From Naganishia liquefaciens (Eukaryota; Basidiomycota; Tremellomycetes; Filobasidiales; Filobasidiaceae), in contig BLZA01000030.1 of the NCBI GenBank assembly GCA_013423385.1, positions 1-64,000 of the forward strand: a stretch of DNA of 64,000 nt, written 5' to 3'. A model generated the notes under the pieces. The model ran no database searches. It was not told where the DNA came from and saw nothing but the letters and a program-made list of their open reading frames with translations. The translations under genes and the position numbers were made by a program. Positions 6,601-60,162 of this stretch are shown here, piece by piece; position 1 is the first letter of the stretch, and the number at the start of each line of letters is the position of its first letter.

Positions 6601-9600
6601 ACTCTGGTGCGTGCACACTACGAGTTCAAGATGCGCGCTCACTGAATTGATGGTGTAGTCTTTGCGACAAGTATCCCCATGATGACGAATGCACTTCCCA
6701 TCCTGCTAGAATATCTGGATTCCATTCGCGCACCTTGTCAATGATGTAGTTCATCAGCTCGAGCTCGTCTTCGACGTATGTGATGTCGACTTCTGGGAGG
6801 GCAATTCGTCCGGGTTCGAGGCGTTTGTCGCGGACGGCGATCATGCCGACGTGATAGCCCTCTCTGCCTTGATAGTCTGGCAAATCGATGCGCTCATCCT
6901 GCAAGCAGTAGAAGACGGCAGCAATGGCGTCTTGTTCCGGATCAGGAAGAAGTCGCATGCGTGACGTGGCTAGGAAGGCTTAGCGGAGTGGAGGCTGTGA
7001 GAAAACAGACTTACCAAAGACCTCTATTGCAAGCGTGCTCATCGCCTGCCTTTCTCGGTGAGAGTTGCTATTCTTTTTCTTCTGGCTGACGGAAAACCCA
7101 TATCGATTGGCTTGTGTTGGACCTCCCCACTGTACTGGAGTCAGCGTTGCCAGGACCGCTGCAAGCACGACTGACCTGCGAGGCTGCCTTGGCCCGAGTA
7201 TTCATGACTGCGCATATCAGCCGCCTTATCTACGATGCGAGCCTTAACGCCAGACTCACTTTTCGCCTCTCGTTCTTGCTTATCCTTCTCGAGCCACAGC
7301 TCGACCACTGCCTTTGGCGGCGGAACCGGAACATACACCCAATCTCTGACAGTGTCTGGAGGTTTCCGTTTTCCCTTCCTTCGTCTCGGCCTTTTCTTCG
7401 CCCGCACTTCGAACTCAAAGGGTTCAAGCTGTGCCACACCATTGTACGCCAAGTGATGCACCTCGGTACCAAAGCTTTTCGCTTTGAGGGGCACATCGGT
7501 GTGAATGGAAAAGTATGGTTTCTGGTAGACGACAAAGGGCTCGTCGTAAACGTCCAGCGTGGCAATCATGTCTTTACGAGATATTGGCGGCGGCTGATAC
7601 TTCCAGGTATTGGGTATGATATGAGTTGATTCTTCCGAGTTGGCAGAGATTGTTTCAGAAACGACGGTCCCGGTGCTATCTGACGGGCGGGCAGCATCGA
7701 CCGGCTCCTGGGACATGAACCTCGCGCGTTTTTTAGGCTTGGTCGCTTGACCGGAAACATATGTGGGGGCGAGAAATGTTGCTGCGAGATCCCTAGAATG
7801 GCTCTGCTTTGCCTCGTCCGAAGGGCTCGCAGGCGGTGTCGGATCCGTAAAAGTCGGCTCAAGCGCCTCTTCGGACTCCCAGCTCTGGCGGTGCCTCTTG
7901 ATGCCGGTAGAGATTGTCAAGGGGTCAATAATCTGTGCTTGAGCCTCTGCATCCACGCCGACCGCGGCGGGTCTATCGAGTCCAGCTTCAGGGTCGTCCG
8001 AATCGCCGTCCACGTTGCCATCCATAGTCGCGCGAGACGCCACAAGATCGACTTCATCCTGTGCCAAACCCATCTCGCCTCCATCCTGCGGTTTGATCGT
8101 CTCGTCGCTCATCAAGACGTCCTCGGCAGCCAACGCTGCCTCCCGGTCACCGCCCTCGATAAACGGATTCCTCACGGGGACGCCGCTGTCCCGACGCGGT
8201 CCAAGGTTCCTTTGCGGTGTCGGTGACGCCTTGGCACGCGCAAACAGATTCTTGGCGACGGGCGTCTTGACCGGGCTGCTTTGCCTATCGCTCGAGCGAC
8301 TCCCAGGATAATAAGGATTCTCCCGGCCGGCCTTTGTCGGTGTCGTAAAGTGCCTCAACTTGCTCGGCGTGTTCGACGCATGATGCACGGGCGTATTCGT
8401 CGTTGTCTTTTCCCACCGCTGCGTCTTGCCGGGCGTCCGAAGCAATGTATTTTGTTTCCGCTGGCTATGCATCTGCGTGAGCTTTGACGAAAACTCGAAC
8501 GAGTCCGCGTCCTCGTCGTCCGGCCCGCCCTCTCCGCCCCGAACGAAATCGAGAATATCGTCCTGAAGCTCGTCGTATCCGTTGCCGCCGCGCTTGGGTG
8601 TGACATCTCCCGACTCCTCTACCCACGCCGCCTGCGTGCCTATCCGCTCGACCTGCTTGACGTCAACTTCGACATCCTCTGCCGCTTCCTCCTTGAAAGA
8701 CGGCGGACGCTGCGACGTGTATATCACGTCAAACGGATTCGGCCCGTCGGACTCGATGATCTCGGCCAACATCTCCGGCTCGGCTTGCCCCTGCGTTGGC
8801 TTGAGGGGCGATGACTGCGGCACGGGACGAAACACCTGCGTTTGACCGGGTTTTCTGACCGACATCCGGGACTGCGGCCACCCAGCCTCGACGCTCTCAA
8901 ACGTCGTCATGATCCACTAATCGTCGTGAATCAGCCCAAATCGACAGCACAGACGCCACCACTGCTCACCTTGTCCCACTGCGCCTGGTCCCTCGCCCGC
9001 GGCTTGCCCAGCGTCTCAAACTTCATCTTGGAATACCCCTTCTCCCGGCGCTCCTCTTGGACCCGGAACTGTAACATCTGCCACCACCGCTCACTCGCAT
9101 CCCAATCCCCGCCGCGCCAAGCCGCATCCTCCTGACTGAGCCCGACCCGGACCAGCTTGTCATCCGCACTCGGCATCATCCCCGCCGTCGCCGGCAAACC
9201 TTTGCTGACCCGTCTCGCCGCCTCTTCCTCCCACAGCTCGCGCACGGAGCGTACGTGCTTGGCATCGGCGTCGATGGTTTCCGGGTGCAGGAATTCACGC
9301 AGCGAATCGTGCAGGTAACGCGGCTTGAGGCGCCGGCGGTTGAGAACGTGATAGGGGAAGACGTCGATTTCGAGGGCGTCCCATGTTGATTTCCCGGGCA
9401 AGGGTTCCTCGGCGTGAATGTTGGCGGCGGGAACGGTGAGCGAGGTGTGCAAGTCGGAAGGGTCGAAAGCGTCGCCCTCTGCGAGACGATCAGCGCATGC
9501 CCCGTTGGCGGCGGCCAAAAACAAAAAAGCCGCAAGTACTCACCGGGCAAGGGCAATCGAAACAAGCCGCCGTCCAAGTCGACCCATCCGCAGCCGTACA

Positions 9601-22405: not shown

Positions 22406-24694
22406 ATGAATCCCCTTCTCAAGGTGAGCCCTTCCCTTTCTTATCTCCTCGCCCTCGCCCTTGCCCTTTTCCTCTCTCCGCACATCCCCCTCCTTGACGT
22501 CCCCCTCCTCCCGCGGACATGACGTCACGACTAACGCCCTCCCTCCCTCATCCCATCAGAACAAAGTCGACCTCTCGGTACGGTCCTCTTTCCCTCCTCT
22601 CCCAGTGCCTGCCTAACCCATCGTCACGCTCCGCCCGCTCCGCCCGCCCCGCCCCCGCCCCGCCCGGCAGACAATGTCCGAGCAAGAACGCCAGCTTTTC
22701 CAAAAGTATGGGAAATTGCCCAAGAAGAACGTGCTGACGAGCATGCAAAAGGTAAGCGTCGCCGCGCGTCCGCCGTCCGCGCTTCACGCTTGACGTTCCA
22801 CGCTTATGCCCTGCCCCGCACAGGAAAGGAAATACTTTGATTCGGGAGACTATGCAATGCACAAGGCTGGCGTTGGGGCAGAGTTGCCCGTCGGGAGTGC
22901 GATTGCCACGCCCGAGAGGTGAGTCCCCGAGCGAGCCGAGCGCAGCGAGGATGGGAGGCGCCGCGGGCGCGCGAGAAGCCCTTCGAGCGAAGCGAGAATA
23001 CCTCTCTCGTCGAGCGCAGCGAGGATAGGAGGCGCCGCGGGCGCGCGAGAAGCCCTTCGAGCGAAGCGAGAATACCTCTCTCGTCGAGCGCAGCGAGGAT
23101 AGGAGGCGCCGCAGGCAGGGATTCTCCGAGTGCGCCGTAGGGCGCGCGAGAAGCCCTTCGAGCGAAGCGAGAATACCTCTCTCGTCGAGCGCAGCGAGGA
23201 TAGGAGGCGCCGCAGGCGAGAATTCGTCGAGCGCGCCGTAGGGCGCGCGAGAAGCTCTTCGAGCGAAGCGAGAATACCTCTCTCGTCGAGCGCAGCGAGG
23301 ATAGGAGGCGCCGCAGGCGAGAATTCGTCGAGCGCGCCGTAGGGCGCGCGAGAAGCGAGAATACCTCTCTGGTTGAGCGCAGCGAGGATAGGAGGTATCG
23401 TAAACCAGCAAAGGAGGCGTCGCAGGCGAGCACGTCCCGAGAGCGCCGTCGGGGGCGCGAATCCCGGCCTCTGTCGAGCGAAACGAGAAAGAGCTCGCCG
23501 CCAGCAAGGACCGCGCAGGACGTCTTGGGTGTCCGCGAGCCGGACAGGACACGCCTCGCACAAGGATCTCGGCCGTCGCCGGCATCTCTCTCTTGGCATG
23601 CGGAGAGTGCGGCGGGTTGTGCAGAATGAAAGCCCAGCCGGGGGCCACGTCGCTGAAAGGCAAGGCTTGAAAAACTTGCTGAGCGGTTTCTCCGGGAAGA
23701 GACGCGCTTGGCGCGCGCGCGCCGGAAAGCGTGAGGACGGGTGACGAGCGTGACAATGCAGCACGAGACAACGCGGGCCGGCCAAGATCGACGCCATCCC
23801 TCCACCGCAGTCGCCTAGGTGATGGCGTGATTCGCCACAACGATGTATGGCCCATGAACGGGTTGGCCCGAAAACCAAAACGCGCACGCCGCACGGGCTT
23901 CTTCTCATATCCGTATGCTCCCGCCCAACCGCTGACTCCCTGCCCCCTTCTCCTTGGCCAGACTGCCCCACGCTCAGCCCCCCTCGCTCTCCTCGTCGCC
24001 CACCAACTCATCCAGCATGTCCCAATACGCACACCACCACTCATCCTCCTCGGCCTCTTCCCCGCCCCGAGCATCCGCCCTCTCCCCGAGCAACAGCTTC
24101 AGCGTCGCCCAATCCCCAGGGATAGCCATCCCCGGGGCATCCTCCACCGCCGCCGCCGCCGCCGCCGACCCGGGACTCGCCCGCTCCCCGAGCAAGTCGG
24201 GCGGGCTTTCCCCGAGTGGGAGCTTTGGCGCAGGCGCGGGCAGCGGGTTGACGGCGAGAAGACCGAGCGCCGGTGTCGGGGTCGCGAGTATTCCGATTCC
24301 CGGGTCGATCGCGCCCGGTGGCTTTGACTCGTGAGTGACCCCCCCCCTTCCGTCGCCCTGCCACCGGCATGCTCACCTCGGAGCGCCCGCCCGTCCGCCC
24401 GCTAGAACCCGCGTCAGCCCGCCCGTCGCCTTTTCCCCACTCTCATCCTCGGCCGTCCCGCCCTCGTCCTTTCCGATTCAAACATCCCACGCCACGGGGC
24501 CCAACCAGTCCGCCGCACACGTCGGCTCCATCGGCGCCCAGGCCGCAGGGATGCAGCCCGATATGTCCGGGAAAGGCATACAACATCATTCGAGCAGTAT
24601 CGGACATGGGAGTAGCCCCGTCAAGCCGAGTAACCTGAAGCGCGGGTTCGACAGGGAGACGGCGGCGGTGGATGAGCAGGCCGTGGAGGATTAG
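22406..24694 (+). CDS. IGO1: Endosulfine-family protein (Igo1/ENSA-like PP2A inhibitor)
   Basis: Six exons (22406..22423, 22560..22577, 22671..22751, 22824..22918, 23962..24330, 24406..24694) give 289 aa. Residues about 14-60 form the endosulfine core: LFQKYGKLPKKN...LTSMQKERKYFDSGDYAMHKAG. FDSGDY is the invariant site phosphorylated by Greatwall/Rim15 kinase, after which the protein inhibits PP2A-B55 and controls mitotic entry or quiescence. The remainder is a long Ser/Pro/Ala-rich tail, which makes it much longer than yeast Igo1 (about 168 aa). Exon 2 is only 18 nt. The fourth intron is 1043 bp against the usual 50-80 and is full of GC-rich repeats. Confidence 0.88.
22919..23400 (+). repeat. 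GC-rich hairpin repeat array inside the endosulfine intron
   Basis: Units of 65-100 bp built from GAGCGAAGCGAGAATACC, CTCTCGTCGAGCGCAGCGAG and GATAGGAGGCGCCGC, with the near-palindrome GCGCGCCGTAGGGCGCGC in three of them. The array starts within about ten bases of the 5' splice site. GAGCGCAGCGAGGAT recurs about six times. The same family fills an intron of the glutamyl-tRNA synthetase gene. The rest of this intron (23400-23961) holds only weaker echoes. Confidence 0.9.
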
Positions 24695-31311: not shown

Positions 31312-32168
31312 ATGTCGAACAAAGGCAATGAACCGGACATCAAGGTTCTGATGGTCTGCCTAGGGTGAGCCTTCAAAAGTTGAGCCGTGGACAATGCTGA
31401 TATCCCTGCGGGTAGAAAGTGAGTCTCCCCTCGGATCATTATTCTGGAAATTGCCCTAAAGACGCACATCACCTCGCTCTCCCAGCATCTGGTAAGCATC
31501 AATCGCTCCTCTCTCAACGAAAACAGGCACCTTGACTAGGTTCCTCTCGCCTCATAGTCGTTCCCCGATGGCTGAAGCCGTTTTTGCTGCCCGCGCACGT
31601 CTCACCCCGCTCGCATCCCGTATAAAGATCGACTCGTGCGGCACTGCGGCATATCACGTCGGCGAGACACCGGACGAACGGACGGTCTCGACTTGTCGAA
31701 AGGTGAGTTCTGCGACGGCGATTTGAGGAGTAAAAGCTGATGGGGAACAGCATGGCGTGCCGATTGATTCGCGCGCGAGGGCGTTGAATGCTGCTGATTT
31801 CCGGAATTTCACGCATATTATCGCGATGGATACGAATAAGTGAGTCTTCCTGCGCGTGATATCGTACATATCTAATCATTCATAGCCTTCGCAACATCAT
31901 CGCCGCTCGTCCACCGCACACGCCGGCCAAAATCCACCTCTTCTCTTCCTTTTCGCACGACCCGCTCATCGCCGACGCGTCACCGCCGAAAAGCATCGTC
32001 GATCCGTACTACGGCGGCATCAACGGGTTCGAGACGTGCTATGAACAGTGTGTGGATTTCAGTGATGGATTCTTGGAGATGTTGGCAGATGGGAGGTTGG
32101 ATGGGGTACAGGGGGAGGCGCAGGACTTTGTCAAGGAGGTCAAGAAAGGGAGGAAAGCCGGGTTGTAG
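31312..32168 (+). CDS. LTP1: Low-molecular-weight protein tyrosine phosphatase with 3-nt and 6-nt microexons
   Basis: Six exons (31312..31364, 31416..31418, 31486..31491, 31558..31702, 31751..31839, 31886..32168) close in frame to 192 aa. The catalytic P-loop is spread over four of them: ...VCLG ends exon 1, exon 2 is AAA, exon 3 is CATCTG and exon 4 starts TCGTTCC, which together give VCLGNICRSPMAEAV, the exact C-X5-R-S signature of this family. IAMDTNN and DPYYGG follow, the latter with the general-acid Asp. All introns involved are GT-AG and 51-67 nt long. The enzyme dephosphorylates phosphotyrosine in the cytosol. It is somewhat longer than the usual 155-165 aa. Confidence 0.85.
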
Positions 32169-32373
32169 TTATTAGACAACATGAAGTCCGATACAGAACA
32201 ATACGTCGCTCTCTAATCATGTCACTCGTCCTCTAGATCGATGCGTACTACTCGGGAATGCATCCTTGTAACGCAGCCATATCGACGCCCTACCATAGGA
32301 GCCGCGTCGCCTCTTGCATCACGTGACCCGCCATAACGTCACACAGCCGCGATCGGAAACGCCCAAGCTGGCT

Positions 32374-35300
32374 ATGAAGGAATCCATGAAACTCATGCCT
32401 GGTCAGCCCGCCGCACCCGCCCTTTGCTATCCACGCACGATGGCGGATCCTTCCCCCTTCGCGCGGCTCCCGCTCCAGCGCTCCGAGTCCCGCTCATCGC
32501 TCGCGCCATCGTCGCCACTCGCGACACAGTATCCGCATGTGTACCACTACGTCCATAATCTCTTCCAATCTGCCGCGTCCGAAGCGCCGATCAAGGAGGC
32601 TCATCCGCTGAGCGTCAGTAGCTCGACGGGCTCCGGATCGGGATCGAATTCGGAAGACGAGAAGCCCAAGGCGCCGGAGCGAAAATCAACGAGGACCGTT
32701 TCCGTTTCCAGCAACGCTTCCGCTGCGAGCACGCCTTCAACGGATACACAGGGAAGCAGTAAACCTTCGTCCGAGGAAAAAGAGGAGACGATCAGGGTGA
32801 TTGTGGATCTGCTCAAGGATGAAAAGGAAGAGCAGGTAAAGGATGTTCTCAAGCAAAAGTTGGGCCCGATGGGACAGGTGAGTGGGTGATGCAATCTTTG
32901 ATTGGCAACGCTGACACATTTGCAGGATGACGCATGGATGGATCAAGTCTGCCTCGACATAATGCACAAACACCGAGACGACATGGATCATATTCCCTAC
33001 GCTGCCCACCTCGCCCCGATCCGCCCTAAAGCGTCCCCTTCCATCACCCACGCCCTGCCTCATCGACCTTTCACGCCCACCCGCGTACCGTCCTTCCGCT
33101 CGCGCACCCCGCTCGCACGGGCGCAATCTCCGGCTCCTCTCCCGGGAAGCGGCGTCATCGGACAACCGAGCCCAAGTGCCACCCCGACGCATTCAGCTCC
33201 GGGAACACCGACGTTTGCGCACGCGGCGCTCAATAACCCTCTGGTGCAATTGACGGCTGAACGGCTTCTCGGGGGGACGGGATCTAGCGCGAGCGCATTC
33301 TTGTCCGGCAGTAATCAGGGCTCTCCGAAATCTGCTCATGCCTCGCCCGCGACATCGCCCAAGGCAAGCCACACAAAGCCCAATCTTTTGACGGGCGGGA
33401 AACCCCATATGAACTTGCCGTCGCCTTTTCTTCCTGGCGGCGGCGACCCGTGGGCACAGTTTGGAAGGCTTGCTTCGCCTGTGGGAACTCCGCCGGCGCT
33501 CAGCAGGACATCCAGTAATCTGGCGATCGCGCAGCCTTTGACGGCTGCGAATCTGCATCATGCGTCGTTGAATCAATCGCCGGATGTTGCCAACGGCATG
33601 CAGATTCCGCGACATGAGATGGATGATGCGGGCGTCGATGATATCTTTTCCACCTCGGCCATGGATCGACATGCCAAGTATTTGCCGCACCAGGACGATG
33701 ACGAAGATGACGAGTTCTCGCCCTTTGCCAAACCGCCTCACGATCCGCTCTCTACCTCGCCTGCGACCAAACTACAGGTATCCGCCAAGGCTTTTGACCC
33801 AACGCGACTCGGCGCCCCCTCGATGGACCCGAATGCTCCCGGGTTCATGCCAGGCAACGGTCGCTCGTTCGAAAACGAATACACGCCCGAGGCTCCCGCC
33901 GAGGAAGGGCAGTACCTCGGCGACGGCATGACGCCGCTCGATGTGCTTCAGTCAGTATTCACAACGCTGCCGCCCGGCGAGCTCGAGGAAGCGCTCGTCA
34001 AGTCCGGGTACGAATTCGAGGGTGCCATGGCACTGCTCATCGCTCAGAACGGGGGCACACGTTCCGCCACGTCCGGCGCATCGACACCCACGGGTTTGCG
34101 GCCCGAGGTCCGAGGATTCAGGCCGGGCGGCAGGGACGCTGGGTACTTTTATCAAGGTGGTCGCGGGAACGCGCCGTACGGGACGGGTCATCTCAGTCCG
34201 AGGTTTGCGATGGGCGGACCGGGCACGCGCAGCCCGGGCGGCGGCTTGAAGATGTGTCGGTATTACCTTGCAGGGGAATGTCGTCGTGCAGACTGTAGGT
34301 TCAGCCATGACGTCGATCGGGCCCTCTGTCGGTTCTGGTTGCGTGGTCAATGCGCCAAGGGCGACATGTGCGAGTGAGTCGATCATACCTTCCCCTGGAT
34401 TGTTTGTGCTGACTTCTCAAAGATTCATTCACGCGTTGCCCAATGTCGATCCCAATCAGTTATCCAACCAGCTATCCCGGCTCGAGCTCGCCAACGACGG
34501 CACCGCTCGGGCCCGAACACCGCCCGTCGATGAGTTCCCCGATCTCAACTTCCCCCAAGGTCGAGGCCGAGGCGCGCCGTTTGACCCATCGCGGAATCGG
34601 TTTGCCAACGCCGTCAAGCGACCACTCGCGCCTGCCCAACAGCATACAATGGTTACAGGCGGAAGATTTGCCGCTGCTCCACCTCGTCGCTTCCCCGGTC
34701 CGCCCTTTGCCGCTCGTGGACCGCCTCCGGCACCGATGCCTCGACCGTCACCACGCATCAAGCTCCGTCCGCCGACCCTCCTACCGACGCTGCCAACCGG
34801 CGCGGCCCTTAACGAACTCTACCTCGACGCCCGTCAAGGCGCCATTCGTCTCGGCCAAGCACGCAATGCATGCCTTGCCCGCGCTGCGGACGCCTGGCGA
34901 CGTGGCGACGGTGCCGCGGCTAAACGGTTCTCCCGCGAAGCCAACGTTCTCAACGAGCGAATGTCCGCCGAAGGTGCCGAGGCGGCTGGGAACCTTGTCA
35001 AACAGCGTCGCGCGCAGGCACAAGAGGCGATTCAGAATCGCGGTGATTGGAGCGATGATCCGGGAGATCGGGCGATCAAGGGCAAGGAATGCGCGAATGG
35101 GCTTGGTGTGATCATGGGCATTGCGAGTGCATCGTCGTTGGGCCCCGAGGGCAACTCGCTTTCGCCCGAGGAGAGAACCGAAGTGTTGCTGGATCTGCAC
35201 ATGTTGCATGCAAATGAGGGAACAGATGTACTGGAGGATTTCTTGTTGGCTGTAAGTTCTGTCGTCTCTCCTTTCGACCTTGCTGACCCCCTCGCAGCTC

Positions 35301-35492
35301 GAACGAGACAGTTTCTTAGGTCTGGCCTACATTATCGTCGGCGAGGACCGACACACGGGAACTCAAGATCCCGGACGCGGTGCATCGCGGTATCGACTTG
35401 CAACAGCCGTCAAGCAGTTCCTCGCACGGTACAACTACCCTTGGAGTGAGGGCGGCGGATGTATCTGTGTGGATCCAGCGACGCATATGTAG
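32374..35492 (+). CDS. CUE / tandem CCCH zinc-finger / DUF1771 / Smr protein
   Basis: Four exons (32374..32877, 32926..34373, 34423..35251, 35298..35492) give 991 aa; an ATG at 32440 is an alternative start. After a long Ser/Pro-rich half comes a CUE-like helix set (TPLDVLQSVFTTLPPGELEE, about residue 515). Two CCCH fingers follow (CRYYLAGECRRADCRFSH and CRFWLRGQCAKGDMCEFIH), the second spanning an intron, then a DUF1771 helical segment (LGQARNACLARAADAWRRGD) and a C-terminal Smr domain (LDLHMLHANEG, then VGEDRHTGT). DUF1771 plus Smr resembles yeast Cue2 and human N4BP2, and Cue2 cuts mRNA in no-go decay. An RNA-binding, ribosome-linked nuclease is a fair inference. Confidence 0.82.
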
Positions 35493-53618: not shown

Positions 53619-55166
53619 TTACAACTGTCGAACGGGCCCACAACAATCATCGTGGACCCTCAATGCCTGCCAACTCCCTCGTTTCTCTATTACCTGCTGC
53701 TCAAGCTGCTCCTGCAAGTTTCGTCGAAGCTCATCACTCATGTACTCTGTGTTCGGAAGGGATTCAACGGCGGCATTCATATTCACATCTCTCTGAATAA
53801 CATCCATGGCTCCTCCGATCGAATGCCAGCTCTGTTCAAGCCTTCCAGAGAGATGGGCCGAGAGCCCTGTTGGACACACCTGCGCCCAATGCGTTGCCTT
53901 ATCTTTCCAATTGAACCCGTCAAAGAATGAAACGTGTATCTTGAATGGTACCCAACCATCTGCACGCTGCAAGTCATCCGCAATAAGGTTTCCGTCTACG
54001 GCGAATTCTGCACTTATACCCCAACCGGGACAAGGTGGCTCAAGCTGGGCCCCAGAGGCGGTCCACGATCTTACCAGTCCATCGCTCTCGATCAGAGGTC
54101 TGGATATAGATTGCAGATAAGGCTGCGCAGGCAACCGTGGCTTGTGGCCATACAGCGGTCCGGTCAAAGTTGGGTTGTTGAATGATGGCTGGTCATGATC
54201 GAGAGAACAGGCTGTACTCCCATGAGTCCCATCGACATACGACCCAAACCCATCATGTTGTCTGCCGCCCTCCAGAGACGTCAAGCTGTCTCTCAGGCCC
54301 ATTTGAATGTCAAAGTGAAGCTCCGGCATGGTGTAGGTTGGGGACGATATGCTCAGCATCGTTGTGAACGCCTTCTTTATGTCCGAAACGACGCAGAATT
54401 CCAGCCAGCTGCGTTGATCGTCCGCGAGCATGGGACAATCCGCTAACGACCCAACGCGATCGCGCGCATTGAGATCTTGCTGCATTTGCTTCAGAATTTC
54501 GGGAATGTTGGACCATTGCGAATGTCCGATCTGTAGCGGAGACACGAATGCCAAAGAAGTCATGATGACGCCTTCACTGCATGAATCGCAAAATAATGAA
54601 ATGGAGATGGCGGCATTATCCGACTTCCACGGTGGGATTACATAGCGCTCCCATTTGATACGCCATGGCAGAGCGTTTTGCGCAAACCTTTCGAGATTAT
54701 TTTTCTGAGTCAAAAGTGTTGCGCGAACACAGGACGTCATCCGGCCGATATCATGAGGCATTGCCACCCCATTCTGATAGCTGACCTGATTCAGAGTAGA
54801 CACTTCACTGCCAAAAGTACCGTAAGCTTGGGTTAAACTGAAAGTTGTCTCGGGGTAGAAAGAGGATCCACCACTTTCAGTCACTGGCTGTGAAACGCAG
54901 GTACGAAGAGGAATGTCGAATTGAGAAGCGGTGAGCGAGTTCGCAGCTTGAACATCTATTGTATCGTCAGAGATTACCCAGGCTTCAAACATGTTTTCAG
55001 CCTGATTGTCTGATCCAGTGGAAGGCACAAAACTATTTCCTACTGGCGCAAGAGTCGGGATCGGATAGTGTGCTGGCTCAAAAAGAGCCCAGCTACCATC
55101 GATAGTTGTTTGGATAGATTCCGGAACCTTTGCTCTTTTGGCAGTGGAGCGGGTAGTGGGTGGCAT
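53619..55166 (-). CDS. Hypothetical protein, 515 aa
   Basis: One long uninterrupted frame; the first ATG is at 55166 (MPPTTRSTAKRAKVPESI). Upstream codons stay open in the same frame to 55220 but begin with no ATG, so an upstream exon is possible. The N-terminal third is Ser/Thr/Gln-rich. The centre has a compact-looking part (ALPWRIKWERYVIPPW, AISISLFCDSCSEGVI) and a later WVPFKIHVSFFDGFNW. An amphipathic end (LRRNLQEQLEQQVIEKRG) suggests a short coiled coil. No domain recognised. Length and lack of introns differ from the neighbours. Confidence 0.65.
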   Translation of the reverse strand: MPPTTRSTAKRAKVPESIQTTIDGSWALFEPAHYPIPTLAPVGNSFVPSTGSDNQAENMFEAWVISDDTIDVQAANSLTASQFDIPLRTCVSQPVTESGGSSFYPETTFSLTQAYGTFGSEVSTLNQVSYQNGVAMPHDIGRMTSCVRATLLTQKNNLERFAQNALPWRIKWERYVIPPWKSDNAAISISLFCDSCSEGVIMTSLAFVSPLQIGHSQWSNIPEILKQMQQDLNARDRVGSLADCPMLADDQRSWLEFCVVSDIKKAFTTMLSISSPTYTMPELHFDIQMGLRDSLTSLEGGRQHDGFGSYVDGTHGSTACSLDHDQPSFNNPTLTGPLYGHKPRLPAQPYLQSISRPLIESDGLVRSWTASGAQLEPPCPGWGISAEFAVDGNLIADDLQRADGWVPFKIHVSFFDGFNWKDKATHWAQVCPTGLSAHLSGRLEQSWHSIGGAMDVIQRDVNMNAAVESLPNTEYMSDELRRNLQEQLEQQVIEKRGSWQALRVHDDCCGPVRQL

Positions 55167-55320
55167 TTCTTGAGCTACGCACGATGCTGGTGTTGAGAAT
55201 GGAACGAATGCGTTTGCCACAAAGAAATCTGGAAGACTTGCCCACTTTGACCTGCTCTGGAACGCATGTCTTATAGTGGGATTGCCATTCCCCTTCCCTA
55301 CGCACCGCCTTTCCGAACTT

Positions 55321-56328
55321 TGATGCTCATCACCCTAAAAGGAGATGCTCATCACCCTGAAAGGCAGGTTTTGCGCTGCGTTGTTCCGACTGAGCCATAT
55401 CTGTTCCCGCGCTCCAGATTCGACCTGGAGAGGCGTTAATTTCTTCACGAGCCTAAGCGACTTTGGTACCCGGCGCGCATCAATTCAGATCGTTGTCTGT
55501 CAACGTCTCGTGGCGATGTGACTTGCCTATATTAGATCCTGCTACGCATAGATTACCAAAGATATATAGTGGTACAGGCGACTGCCCTACCGCTCGGTCT
55601 CACGGACGGTCACATCCTGAGCGGGCATCCTTTGACGGTGTTTCGGGCTCGGAGCGGCGCAATGATCGCTTGGACAGCTGCTCGGACTTATCGCACACCA
55701 CGAGGTCGAAGTAATGTCTGGCTGTGGTCCTACTCTCAGGTTTCTGTGCTTCGTTCGAGAATTTTGAAAGCTTCGAAGGCCATTGTCACCATCACTGCCA
55801 ACGAGTATAGCAGATCGACAAACATGGACGAAGCGCTGATGAGACGACCGCCCCGGGCCGGACAATGAACATTACGTAACTCACCTAGAAACCTAGAACG
55901 GCGATCGGGCGCAATTTCCTGAATGCCGATGGCAATAGCAACGTGCTATCTAATCATGAAACGTGCCTTCCCCTGAATTCTTCTAAACATCGCGTGTTTT
56001 CGCCCATTGTCTATCCCCTCTACTGGATCCGCCGACAGTACTGCTACGCACACTGTTGGTCTCCTTTCTCCCTTTGACGCTTATTCCGGATCGACATGCG
56101 GATATAAAGCCTCGACTCCACAGCCTCAGACGCTGATCTTGATCGGCGGTTCCGTTGTAGACTATTGATTGTTTCTTCCGCCTGCAATACTTTTCCGTCA
56201 CGAATTCGACCTCCGCCACCACACGTTGTATCTCTCACTACATTAGAAACCGCCTCGTCTTCAGCTGGTATCGCCAACCCATATTGTATTCATCTCCAAT
56301 CATCAAGTACACTTTGACAACATTCACC
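55321..56328. other. Intergenic region with a short direct repeat
   Basis: AGATGCTCATCACCCT-like sequence is directly repeated at about 55321-55362. Open frames at 55463-55868 and 55983-56277 lack motifs. It probably includes the promoter of the phosphodiesterase gene. Confidence 0.4.
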
Positions 56329-57967: not shown

Positions 57968-58581
57968 TCATTTTAAAGAGGGATGCGGCGATCTATCGGG
58001 TTCGCTGCTGCCCTCTCCACCGCATCCTTCATACCGTCTTGATCTCCCCTTTCTTGACATGGTAAACGTAAGGCGCTCCGGTCTCAAAAGGGCATCGTGT
58101 TGCGAACCCCATTTGGTTTGATTATCTGGATCATTGCGATCCCAATATTGAAACGGTTTAATGGACGGAACAACCAATGCACATGGCATCATAGGGCGTT
58201 GGCGATTGTCTCGCGCGGCCAATTCCGGCCAATGCTTTGCTGTTGCCGAGCGCATCTCGGGAAGCCGTGGCATTATCTTTTCAACATTGGTGATCCCGGT
58301 ATACAACACTTGGCTCCCGGGTTCTCCCTTCCAAGCCAGGAACGACAAGCCAGTCTACTCCTTGATGTCCCTGGCATGGGAATATAATTCATGCTATCAG
58401 CCAAATTGAGGTAGGATGGATTTTGATCTCCCGTCAAACCCTCGGCTTGTGCTTCTCCTGTGTTGCCTAATTCTGCTTTACTGTTGTCATTCCTGGTCCT
58501 GCTGAACTTCTTGGGATCGAACCTGTAGCGTTCCTTCCTCCAATCTCGGCGCGCGAAACGCCCACCTTTTAGCTTGTCCAT
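57968..58581 (-). pseudogene. GT18 (MGAT5-like) glycosyltransferase fragment with frame breaks
   Basis: Pieces in two frames add up to the C-terminal part of a GT18-type protein: GITNVE, then RDALGNSKALAGIGRARQSP and TPYDAMCIG in a second frame, then IKPFQYWDRNDPDNQTKWGS and QHDALL back in the first. These match the gene at the right end (GITNIGIMDG, RDALGHSKSLVGTGQP, TPYNALCMSVP, RWNKKDPEDETRW) block by block. The frame changes twice without splice signals: near 58250, and near 58165, where a single extra T would explain it. The ATG at 58581 (MDKLKGG...) overlaps the end of the upstream gene by 13 bases. A broken paralogue is the simplest reading. Confidence 0.5.
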
Positions 58582-59912
58582 GAGGCAAAGCGCCCCTCTA
58601 AAATCGCCAGTGCTCCATTTCTAGCATCTTGTTTCCCTTGCTTCCTCTCCATATCGCATAGCTCGTAGCTCGACACATTTGATAAATCCGACATGGACTC
58701 TAGAGTCGAAGTCGCCATAGAGTTGACCGTATTCTGGCATGAGGCCTTCCTGCTGCGCATGCGCTTTATCGCTCCCCAAGCTGATCCATCTTTGAGTAAA
58801 CGAAGAGTCGATATCCGACGGATTCCATGGCTAATCTCCGCACGTGACTCGTTGAGCGCTCTGAAAGACGTAACGATGTCACTATGCTGAGTCGATCCAC
58901 CTTGCTTCTTTCCGCTTGCAACATTTCCCCACGACTCTTCGCTGTCGCTTCGTTTATGATCAGACGACGAAAGAGAGGCCGTGATCTCAACTGTAGGCTT
59001 GGGCTTGAAGTGCGACAAGGACGATAAGCGGAAGTCGGGCAAGCGAGGGCGACGTCGAATCGTTCTAGGAGAGGACGAGGCCGAGCTCTGTGTAGCATTG
59101 TTGGCGGGAGCGTCAGGCGCACCACTCCAGGTTTTCGGAGACCAACTGAATCCGGAATCCATCGATCTTCGCTTTGGGGGACGATGTAACAATGAAGTGG
59201 AAAAGGAGCGACCGAGGCTCTGATACGACGCCTTCTGCGTCGTTGTGGAGGGTTTCTCATTCTCATCAATCGCCCGATACGCTACAATATCGGCCATCAG
59301 CGCAACCTTGCCGTCTCCTCTTTTTCTCCTGCCGAATACCGCTGATGTCTTGGACAGTCCAACCTCAAAGGCCCGGAAGAGTCGTTCCATTGATGGCTTC
59401 GCCTTGACCAGTATCCCAGTACTTCTCCTCCTCACAGCAGCTTCAACGAGAGTTGTTTCCTGGTCCATCTTGGCACTCGATACGCCGTGCACGTCTTTGA
59501 TCGGGACCATCGCTATTGGGATAGCCAGACAGCTCGTAGTTGCTACTGGATCAAAAGGAGCGATGAACCGGGCCGGCATCACTTGGCATTCAATCGGAGA
59601 GTGTCGAGCCAGCGAGCAGCTATCGGGAGAGCGGGACGAAGGTGACCGCAAGCTATCACCCTTCCCAGTAGACGAGTAGACCGTCTTGTACACATTTTCT
59701 GCCGTCTGCTCTTTATGACGGTAATTGATGATTCTCGCGACTGGTTTCTGAAATCGGGTGAAGTCGACGAAGATGTCATTCTTAGAATGATGCAGACTTT
59801 CCGAAGTGTCCGCCTTGTGATGGCCGAATGGTTTGCGGGACAAGTTTCCGACTTCTTGCACAGCCTCCGTTGACGCGCCTGATTTACCTTGAACCGCAGT
59901 TGTTGTGGCCAT
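58569..59912 (-). CDS. Basic Ser-rich hypothetical protein
   Basis: One uninterrupted frame of 447 aa from ATG 59912 (MATTTAVQGKSGASTEAV) to TAA 58569. It is basic and rich in Ser, Arg and Thr, with many RR and SP/TP pairs (RRSMDSGFSWSPKTW; RTIRRRPRLPDFRLSSL). A possible folded centre reads MERLFRAFEVGLSKTSAVFG. No domain recognised; the composition suits a phosphoprotein. The coding pattern over the whole length is fair but not proven. Confidence 0.5.
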   Translation of the reverse strand: MATTTAVQGKSGASTEAVQEVGNLSRKPFGHHKADTSESLHHSKNDIFVDFTRFQKPVARIINYRHKEQTAENVYKTVYSSTGKGDSLRSPSSRSPDSCSLARHSPIECQVMPARFIAPFDPVATTSCLAIPIAMVPIKDVHGVSSAKMDQETTLVEAAVRRRSTGILVKAKPSMERLFRAFEVGLSKTSAVFGRRKRGDGKVALMADIVAYRAIDENEKPSTTTQKASYQSLGRSFSTSLLHRPPKRRSMDSGFSWSPKTWSGAPDAPANNATQSSASSSPRTIRRRPRLPDFRLSSLSHFKPKPTVEITASLSSSDHKRSDSEESWGNVASGKKQGGSTQHSDIVTSFRALNESRAEISHGIRRISTLRLLKDGSAWGAIKRMRSRKASCQNTVNSMATSTLESMSDLSNVSSYELCDMERKQGKQDARNGALAILEGRFASWTS

Positions 59913-60162
59913 TTCACTTGTAGTGGGCGTCAGAAGCACCGTGCCCAAAGGCGAAAGAGTCTCGGCTGAGGTTCGTGCTCTATGGGACGGGGTTTCCTTT
60001 TCGGGAGTCTGTTCATGCGCACCGCAACAGTTCGCTGGTCCGACGCGTCTGGGCGGCGTCTCTGGCAGTATATCGCTGCCGACATCCAGGGAACCGATCC
60101 TATCTAGCCTTCGATGTCAAATCCGTCAATGCACAGAGCCAGTGGGACTCAAAGGCTCTTCC

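Follow-up and report, generated by a model that had tools for sequence, protein, structure and literature searches.

Two consecutive microexons of 3 and 6 nt very probably build the catalytic loop of a low-molecular-weight tyrosine phosphatase in Naganishia liquefaciens and are erased from gene models in three tremellomycete orders

Introduction

Very small exons have been described in fungi and in plants. According to passages of the work on Cryptococcus neoformans var. grubii, constitutive exons in this yeast can be as small as 1 bp and are hard to find automatically, and its introns are short, with a median of 55 nt in coding regions (PMC3990503). An exon of a single nucleotide is proven for APC11 of Arabidopsis (in the part of PMC4674806 considered here), and the plant microexon set, as far as the excerpts of PMC8831610 go, is conserved and misannotated and includes two adjacent microexons of 5 and 12 nt in rice. 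In an ascomycete, a microexon switch in the transcription factor Xlr2 of Trichoderma virens was tested and found to be regulated by glucose (PMC11121469, in part).

An earlier note on the DNA studied here had proposed that a 3-nt and a 6-nt exon pass in a row through the active site of a tyrosine phosphatase. The rarity that it assigned to 3-nt exons stands, although exons of 1 bp (passages of PMC3990503) and adjacent microexons in rice (excerpts of PMC8831610) mean that they are not without precedent in kind. Our search of the literature, mostly at the level of listings, returned no description of microexons in low-molecular-weight (LMW) phosphatases; in a paper on the phosphatases of C. neoformans, the terms 'low molecular weight', 'LMW' and 'LTP1' are absent from the main text, supplements aside (PMC7445287). 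Here, we argue that both microexons are constitutive, that Filobasidiales, Tremellales and Trichosporonales share them, and that annotation misses them systematically, a reading based on sequence to which we assign a probability of roughly 0.93.

Results

Structure of the gene

A search with PF01451 (E of 0.001 or better) found only one match to LMW tyrosine phosphatases in the 19.4-Mb genome, and this match lies within the window, i.e., the whole stretch of 64,000 nt analysed here. After a 2-kb stretch was reread, the gene model was reassembled splice site by splice site; all positions and sequences in the earlier note proved exact. The gene is read as follows, exon 1 beginning at a putative start codon picked from the frame:

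31312..31364, + strand: exon 1, 53 nt, from ATG to CTA GG; ends in phase 2 after VCL
31365..31415, + strand: intron 1, 51 nt, GTGAGC...TAG, with a CTGAT branch-like site and the weak acceptor GCGGGTAG
31416..31418, + strand: microexon AAA, 3 nt; third base of Gly, then bases 1 and 2 of the P-loop Asn codon
31419..31485, + strand: intron 2, 67 nt, GTGAGT...CAG
31486..31491, + strand: microexon CATCTG, 6 nt; last base of Asn, all of Ile, then bases 1 and 2 of the second loop Cys codon
31492..31557, + strand: intron 3, 66 nt, GTAAGC...TAG
31558..31702, + strand: exon 4, 145 nt; opens with T CGT TCC (last base of Cys, then Arg and Ser) and carries the Pfam LMWPc match
31703..31750, + strand: intron 4, 48 nt, GTGAGT...CAG
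31751..31839, + strand: exon 5, 89 nt
31840..31885, + strand: intron 5, 46 nt, GTGAGT...TAG, with a CTAAT branch-like site
31886..32168, + strand: exon 6, 283 nt, through the stop codon TAG

Introns 1 to 5 (51, 67, 66, 48 and 46 nt) lie in phases 2, 2, 2, 0 and 2, respectively. Joining the six exons gives a coding sequence of 579 nt including the stop codon, which specifies a predicted protein of 192 amino acids that begins MSNKGNEPDIKVLMVCLGNICRSPMAEAVF and contains VCLGNICRS; the claim that adding both microexons restores GNICR and closes the gene in frame is borne out by this reconstruction. With both microexons included, spliced transcripts would read GGAAACATCTGTCG; with both skipped, they would read CTAGGTCG. 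AAA is preceded by TAG and followed by GTGAGT, and CATCTG by CAG and GTAAGC, respectively; each of the two is no longer than 15 nt, has an AG acceptor and a GT donor of its own, and is needed for the product.

The product of the adjoining gene downstream (32299-35446, + strand) has CCCH zinc fingers and a DUF1771 domain. Elsewhere in the window, Rfam identifies a tRNA at 1933-2020 on the - strand (53.1 bits), which perhaps contains an intron and whose anticodon was not resolved by ARAGORN. Long open reading frames without a Pfam match are found, all on the - strand, at 7144-8916 (591 codons), 22551-24098 (516 codons), 53622-55334 (571 codons) and 58572-60116 (515 codons).

The encoded protein

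With both microexons included, the product matches PF01451 (LMWPc) at 126 bits (cut-off 23.2) over positions 1-144 of the 144 of the profile; the score without them is 105.2 bits. The P-loop motif C-X5-R-[ST] near the N-terminus, here CLGNICRS, is present only when both microexons are included, and is absent from all three skip forms. DPYYG, the general-acid motif of LMW protein tyrosine phosphatases, is found at residues 138-142, in invariant columns of our family alignment (A1). Among solved structures, 1d1p matched (E of 9e-35); the solved relatives 1d1p, 1d1q and 1d2a are presumably yeast Ltp1. We hold it very probable, jointly with constitutive inclusion of the microexons, that the gene encodes a catalytically competent LMW protein tyrosine phosphatase with a P-loop built from four exons.

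The microexon pair is the only route to the loop

Isoforms from exon 1 to the end of exon 4 were enumerated with at most four introns of 35-260 nt, GT or GCA donors and AG acceptors. Of 149 isoforms that were open and in frame, two carried CX5R[ST] and one of these, joining AAA and CATCTG, read GNICRS. The note's assertion that the loop needs the pair withstood a search for other routes to GNICR in 31365-31557: under relaxed rules (GT, GC or AT donors, AG or AC acceptors, introns from 20 nt; target pattern GGN AAY ATH TGY MGN), AAA plus CATCTG was again the single route. It is very improbable that a different arrangement supplies the loop, be it a distant upstream exon or a TGA exon at 31420-31422 that would give GDICR. 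This GDICR route has an open frame and retains CX5R, but neither the AAAG acceptor nor the GTCTCC donor of the exon scores as high as any of the 27 reference sites (see below). The pattern AAYATHTGYMG has no occurrence on either strand of the window, and 115 of the best 120 matches to the intact protein read CLGNICRS, the other five being without the region or starting in it. In addition, no contiguous CLGNICR-coding stretch exists in the 19.4-Mb genome, which, since there is one LMWPc locus, argues that no other copy supplies the enzyme.

A second alternative is that the loop has truly been lost, so that the locus is a decaying or non-catalytic paralogue in which AAA and CATCTG are flanked by AG and GT by chance. 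In dinucleotide shuffles of the 193-nt stretch, a GNICR route of one to three exons appeared in 9 of 259,740 cases (once with GTRNG donors), i.e., by chance at about 3.5e-5, and in real 193-nt windows, both strands considered, a route appeared in 6 of 18,232, all six overlapping this locus. The chance estimate speaks against degeneration, as do a frame that is whole across six exons and the 74 percent identity to a protein of Naganishia vaughanmartiniae (for the relatives' annotations, see below).

Splice signals

Chaperonin (PF00118) and proteasome (PF00227) genes of this genome served as the source of reference introns. Of 52 neighbouring exon pairs, 41 were at most 110 nt apart, and these comprised 27 with a plain intron and 14 without an accepted candidate. 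The 27 introns, found in a search limited to 120 nt, measured 46-105 nt (median 58; 26 of them 73 nt or less); G at donor position +5 was present in 24, YAG in 26 and CTRAY in 18, a consensus that is somewhat flattering, because the introns were chosen by a score that favours it. Against this set, the donors of introns 1-3 ranked 10, 24 and 12 of 27, i.e., fair to strong, and the acceptors ranked 0, 7 and 11. The acceptor of intron 1 thus falls below all 27 reference acceptors, and that of intron 4 ranks 1 of 27. The weakness of the intron 1 acceptor speaks slightly against AAA always being included and is a point in favour of leaky splicing. In a weak search of the chaperonin and proteasome pairs, in which 3 of the 11 wider pairs (more than 110 nt apart) were viewed by eye, no further microexon below 10 nt was clearly needed, the pairs viewed being apparently explained by small exons of the ordinary kind or by a single longer intron.

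Skipping and retention

Skipping of either microexon or of both leaves the frame open and breaks CX5R, so that the earlier statement that skipping is in frame yet destroys the loop was verified on the three skip forms. Retention of intron 1, 2 or 3 leads to an immediate in-frame stop; the stop directly follows the exon because a phase-2 intron starting with GTRA reads NNG TRA. These properties would suit a switch conserved across the class, in which alternative splicing yields a stable but dead phosphatase. Tremellomycetes, including relatives of Cryptococcus, would then tune the amount of active enzyme by including or skipping the microexons; the dead form would be equally long-lived and might bind substrates, and intron retention would provide a second, stop-bearing off state. 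The weak acceptor of intron 1 fits this proposal, and a regulated microexon switch is known from Xlr2 of T. virens (PMC11121469, in part). Skipping, however, would require introns of 121, 139 or 193 nt. Further evidence on this proposal comes from the relatives, and on balance we regard it as improbable.

Gene models in relatives

The best homologue is a record from N. vaughanmartiniae (the 74 percent mentioned above), followed by one from N. cerealis (71 percent). The five of the best 120 matches that do not read CLGNICRS are the Filobasidiales records P0001, P0002 and P0029, the fragment P0003, and P0068 from Moniliophthora, which starts at GNICRS. P0001 reads VCLG RSPMAEAV, the exact product of skipping both microexons, and P0002 and P0029 begin at MAEAV, inside exon 4. 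The form of P0001 predicted that a query carrying the deletion would find more such records, and the search confirmed it with Cryptotrichosporon argae, Kwoniella sp. DSM 27419 and Saitozyma sp.; further tremellomycetes were listed by a later profile search.

The resulting tally covers 216 proteins, of which 29 are tremellomycete by name or resemblance (21 named records, Mrakia frigida and seven unnamed contig-derived proteins) and 187 are others, including unnamed contigs of unchecked taxonomy. Among the records listed, with the full-length searches taking the best 120 each, none of the 21 named tremellomycete proteins has an intact loop: 10 are without Asn-Ile-Cys, two are without Asn, eight start at MAEA and one (K. 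bestiolae) is odd; the first search used the intact protein, and the deletion-form query and the profile (four of the eight rows of its alignment, A2, with the deletion) favour deletion forms. The gap of Asn-Ile-Cys, with VCLG followed directly by RSPMAEA, is found in N. vaughanmartiniae, Cryptotrichosporon argae, Saitozyma, Cryptococcus amylolentus, Cryptococcus sp. DSM 104549, Kwoniella dendrophila, K. dejecticola, K. europaea and two Kwoniella sp. The gap of Asn only, with VC[L/T]G followed directly by ICRSPMAEA, is found in Cutaneotrichosporon sp. HIS471 and Tremella mesenterica, implying that Asn and Ile-Cys drop out as separate units; these two annotations, P0157 and P0159, lack precisely the residue of the AAA microexon. 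In M. frigida, the loop is intact. As to the 187 other proteins, 177 are intact and none shows a clean deletion of Asn-Ile-Cys or of Asn; the remaining 10 comprise six with a late start, two that begin within the loop and keep GNICRS, and two with an insert beside Asn-Ile-Cys.

By order look-up, Naganishia and Filobasidium belong to the Filobasidiales, Cutaneotrichosporon and Cryptotrichosporon to the Trichosporonales, Mrakia to the Cystofilobasidiales, and Tremella, Saitozyma, Papiliotrema, Kockovaella, Kwoniella and Naematelia to the Tremellales. A matching residue gap is present in the annotations of three orders, which at the level of proteins points to conservation. The arrangement is most likely old and common to Filobasidiales, Tremellales and Trichosporonales, where gene prediction would have missed it; the sizes of the relatives' missing exons are deduced from the whole residues absent, and in each relative the conservation of both sizes would follow from the same reasoning. 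A search for homologous DNA returned 24 prokaryotic loci only from genome contigs and none from viral contigs.

In P0002 (the N. cerealis record), KWAKDGLLVAGQ follows CRK exactly at the junction of exons 4 and 5 (window 31702-31751), and looks like an unspliced intron 4 in the gene model. In P0124 (Agrocybe chaxingu) and P0193 (an unnamed contig), extra residues adjoin Asn-Ile-Cys: in one record they stand ahead of GNICR, in the other they separate NIC from RS. Both inserts look like retained introns, placed on one side or the other of the nine nucleotides, and introns may have entered the loop repeatedly.

Intact proteins from contigs

The seven unnamed contig-derived proteins that resemble those of tremellomycetes include four intact ones, three uninformative ones (a jgi/lgn protein and an lgn fragment starting at MAEA, and a fragment without the region) and no skip form. 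The intact proteins, P0017, P0052, P0132 and P0152, read CLGNICRS or CTGNICRS, and their longest contigs measure 966, 987, 1419 and 3781 nt, respectively. A tree of 41 rows places all four in the clade formed by Tremellales and Trichosporonales (100/99). The partner of P0132 is T. mesenterica (100/96), with an annotation that is without Asn; the partner of P0152, which has 21 member sequences, is Cryptococcus sp. DSM 104549 (97/83), with an annotation that is without Asn-Ile-Cys. The four contigs are intron-free open frames of 165-208 residues. The label 'lgn' we take to denote Logan assemblies of public reads. Since they are intron-free in intron-rich fungi and carry this label, the contigs are probably spliced transcripts that include the nine nucleotides.

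These data bear on both a lost loop and a switch. Taken at face value, the exact absence of Asn-Ile-Cys from ten relatives' annotations could be a shared deletion; however, this clade also contains the four intact contigs, and the two gaps of Asn only are unlike the product of a shared deletion of Asn-Ile-Cys, so that degeneration is scarcely credible. As for a switch, a skip form is present in 12 of the 21 named annotations, some of them perhaps drawn from RNA-seq junctions, but skip forms are confined to named annotations, with none among the seven contig-derived proteins. Moreover, gene predictors and short-read aligners drop such exons, as documented for plants in the excerpts of PMC8831610, and skip forms are therefore expected in gene models without any biology behind them. 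The on/off switch suggested in the note thus lacks support, the four informative contig-derived proteins all reading GNICR. We infer that both microexons are included constitutively.

Discussion

If the two microexons are constitutive, as we propose, the question arises of how exons of this size are spliced. The three loop introns are of ordinary length and all in phase 2, which makes it probable that each is recognised as an intron unit. The note had taken the pair to imply strong intron definition; this is the natural route for such exons, and the lengths of 51, 67 and 66 nt, against 46-105 nt (median 58) in the reference set, agree with it. Intron definition has reportedly been studied in S. 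pombe. The 3' splice site of one loop intron and the 5' splice site of the next are 3 and 6 nt apart, too little for two adjacent spliceosomal complexes, so that neighbouring introns would not be occupied at once and removal would be stepwise. In the simplest order, introns 1 and 3 would leave first and intron 2, by then flanked by exons of full size, would follow.

Microexons themselves are already known. As far as our literature search shows, what is new is a pair of 3 and 6 nt running through a catalytic loop, together with the omission of this pair from the annotations listed across the class. If the reading is correct, a signalling enzyme is recorded as dead or truncated in 21 of 21 named tremellomycete models listed outside Mrakia, and phosphatase inventories and mutant libraries of a class in medical and industrial use may omit or misjudge it. 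The locus would also provide a clean natural test of intron definition: as active-site residues, the codons of the microexons cannot drift, and a loss of splicing accuracy could be read as a loss of enzyme. Querying with a deletion form can uncover other genes whose microexons have been erased by annotation.

Once its microexons are joined, the N. liquefaciens protein has the same whole domain and CX5RS loop as the LMW protein tyrosine phosphatase family (PF01451), and it is unusual in gene structure alone. Like Xlr2 of T. virens, as portrayed in the part of PMC11121469 considered here, it is a fungal case in which a microexon decides the function of the protein; unlike Xlr2, no regulation is seen in the sequence and annotations examined for the Naganishia gene. 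The plant microexons share more with it, being likewise tiny, constitutive, long conserved, absent from most annotations and essential to the protein (excerpts of PMC4674806 and PMC8831610), but they belong to another kingdom and to other genes, and the Naganishia pair has a smaller combined length (9 nt) and codes for residues of an active site. Closest are the small exons of C. neoformans, which belong to the same fungal class and combine tiny constitutive exons with short introns (PMC3990503); in comparison with these, described in passages that name no such gene, the Naganishia exons, of 3 and 6 nt, are consecutive, fall within a catalytic loop, and correspond to a gap in the annotations of three orders.
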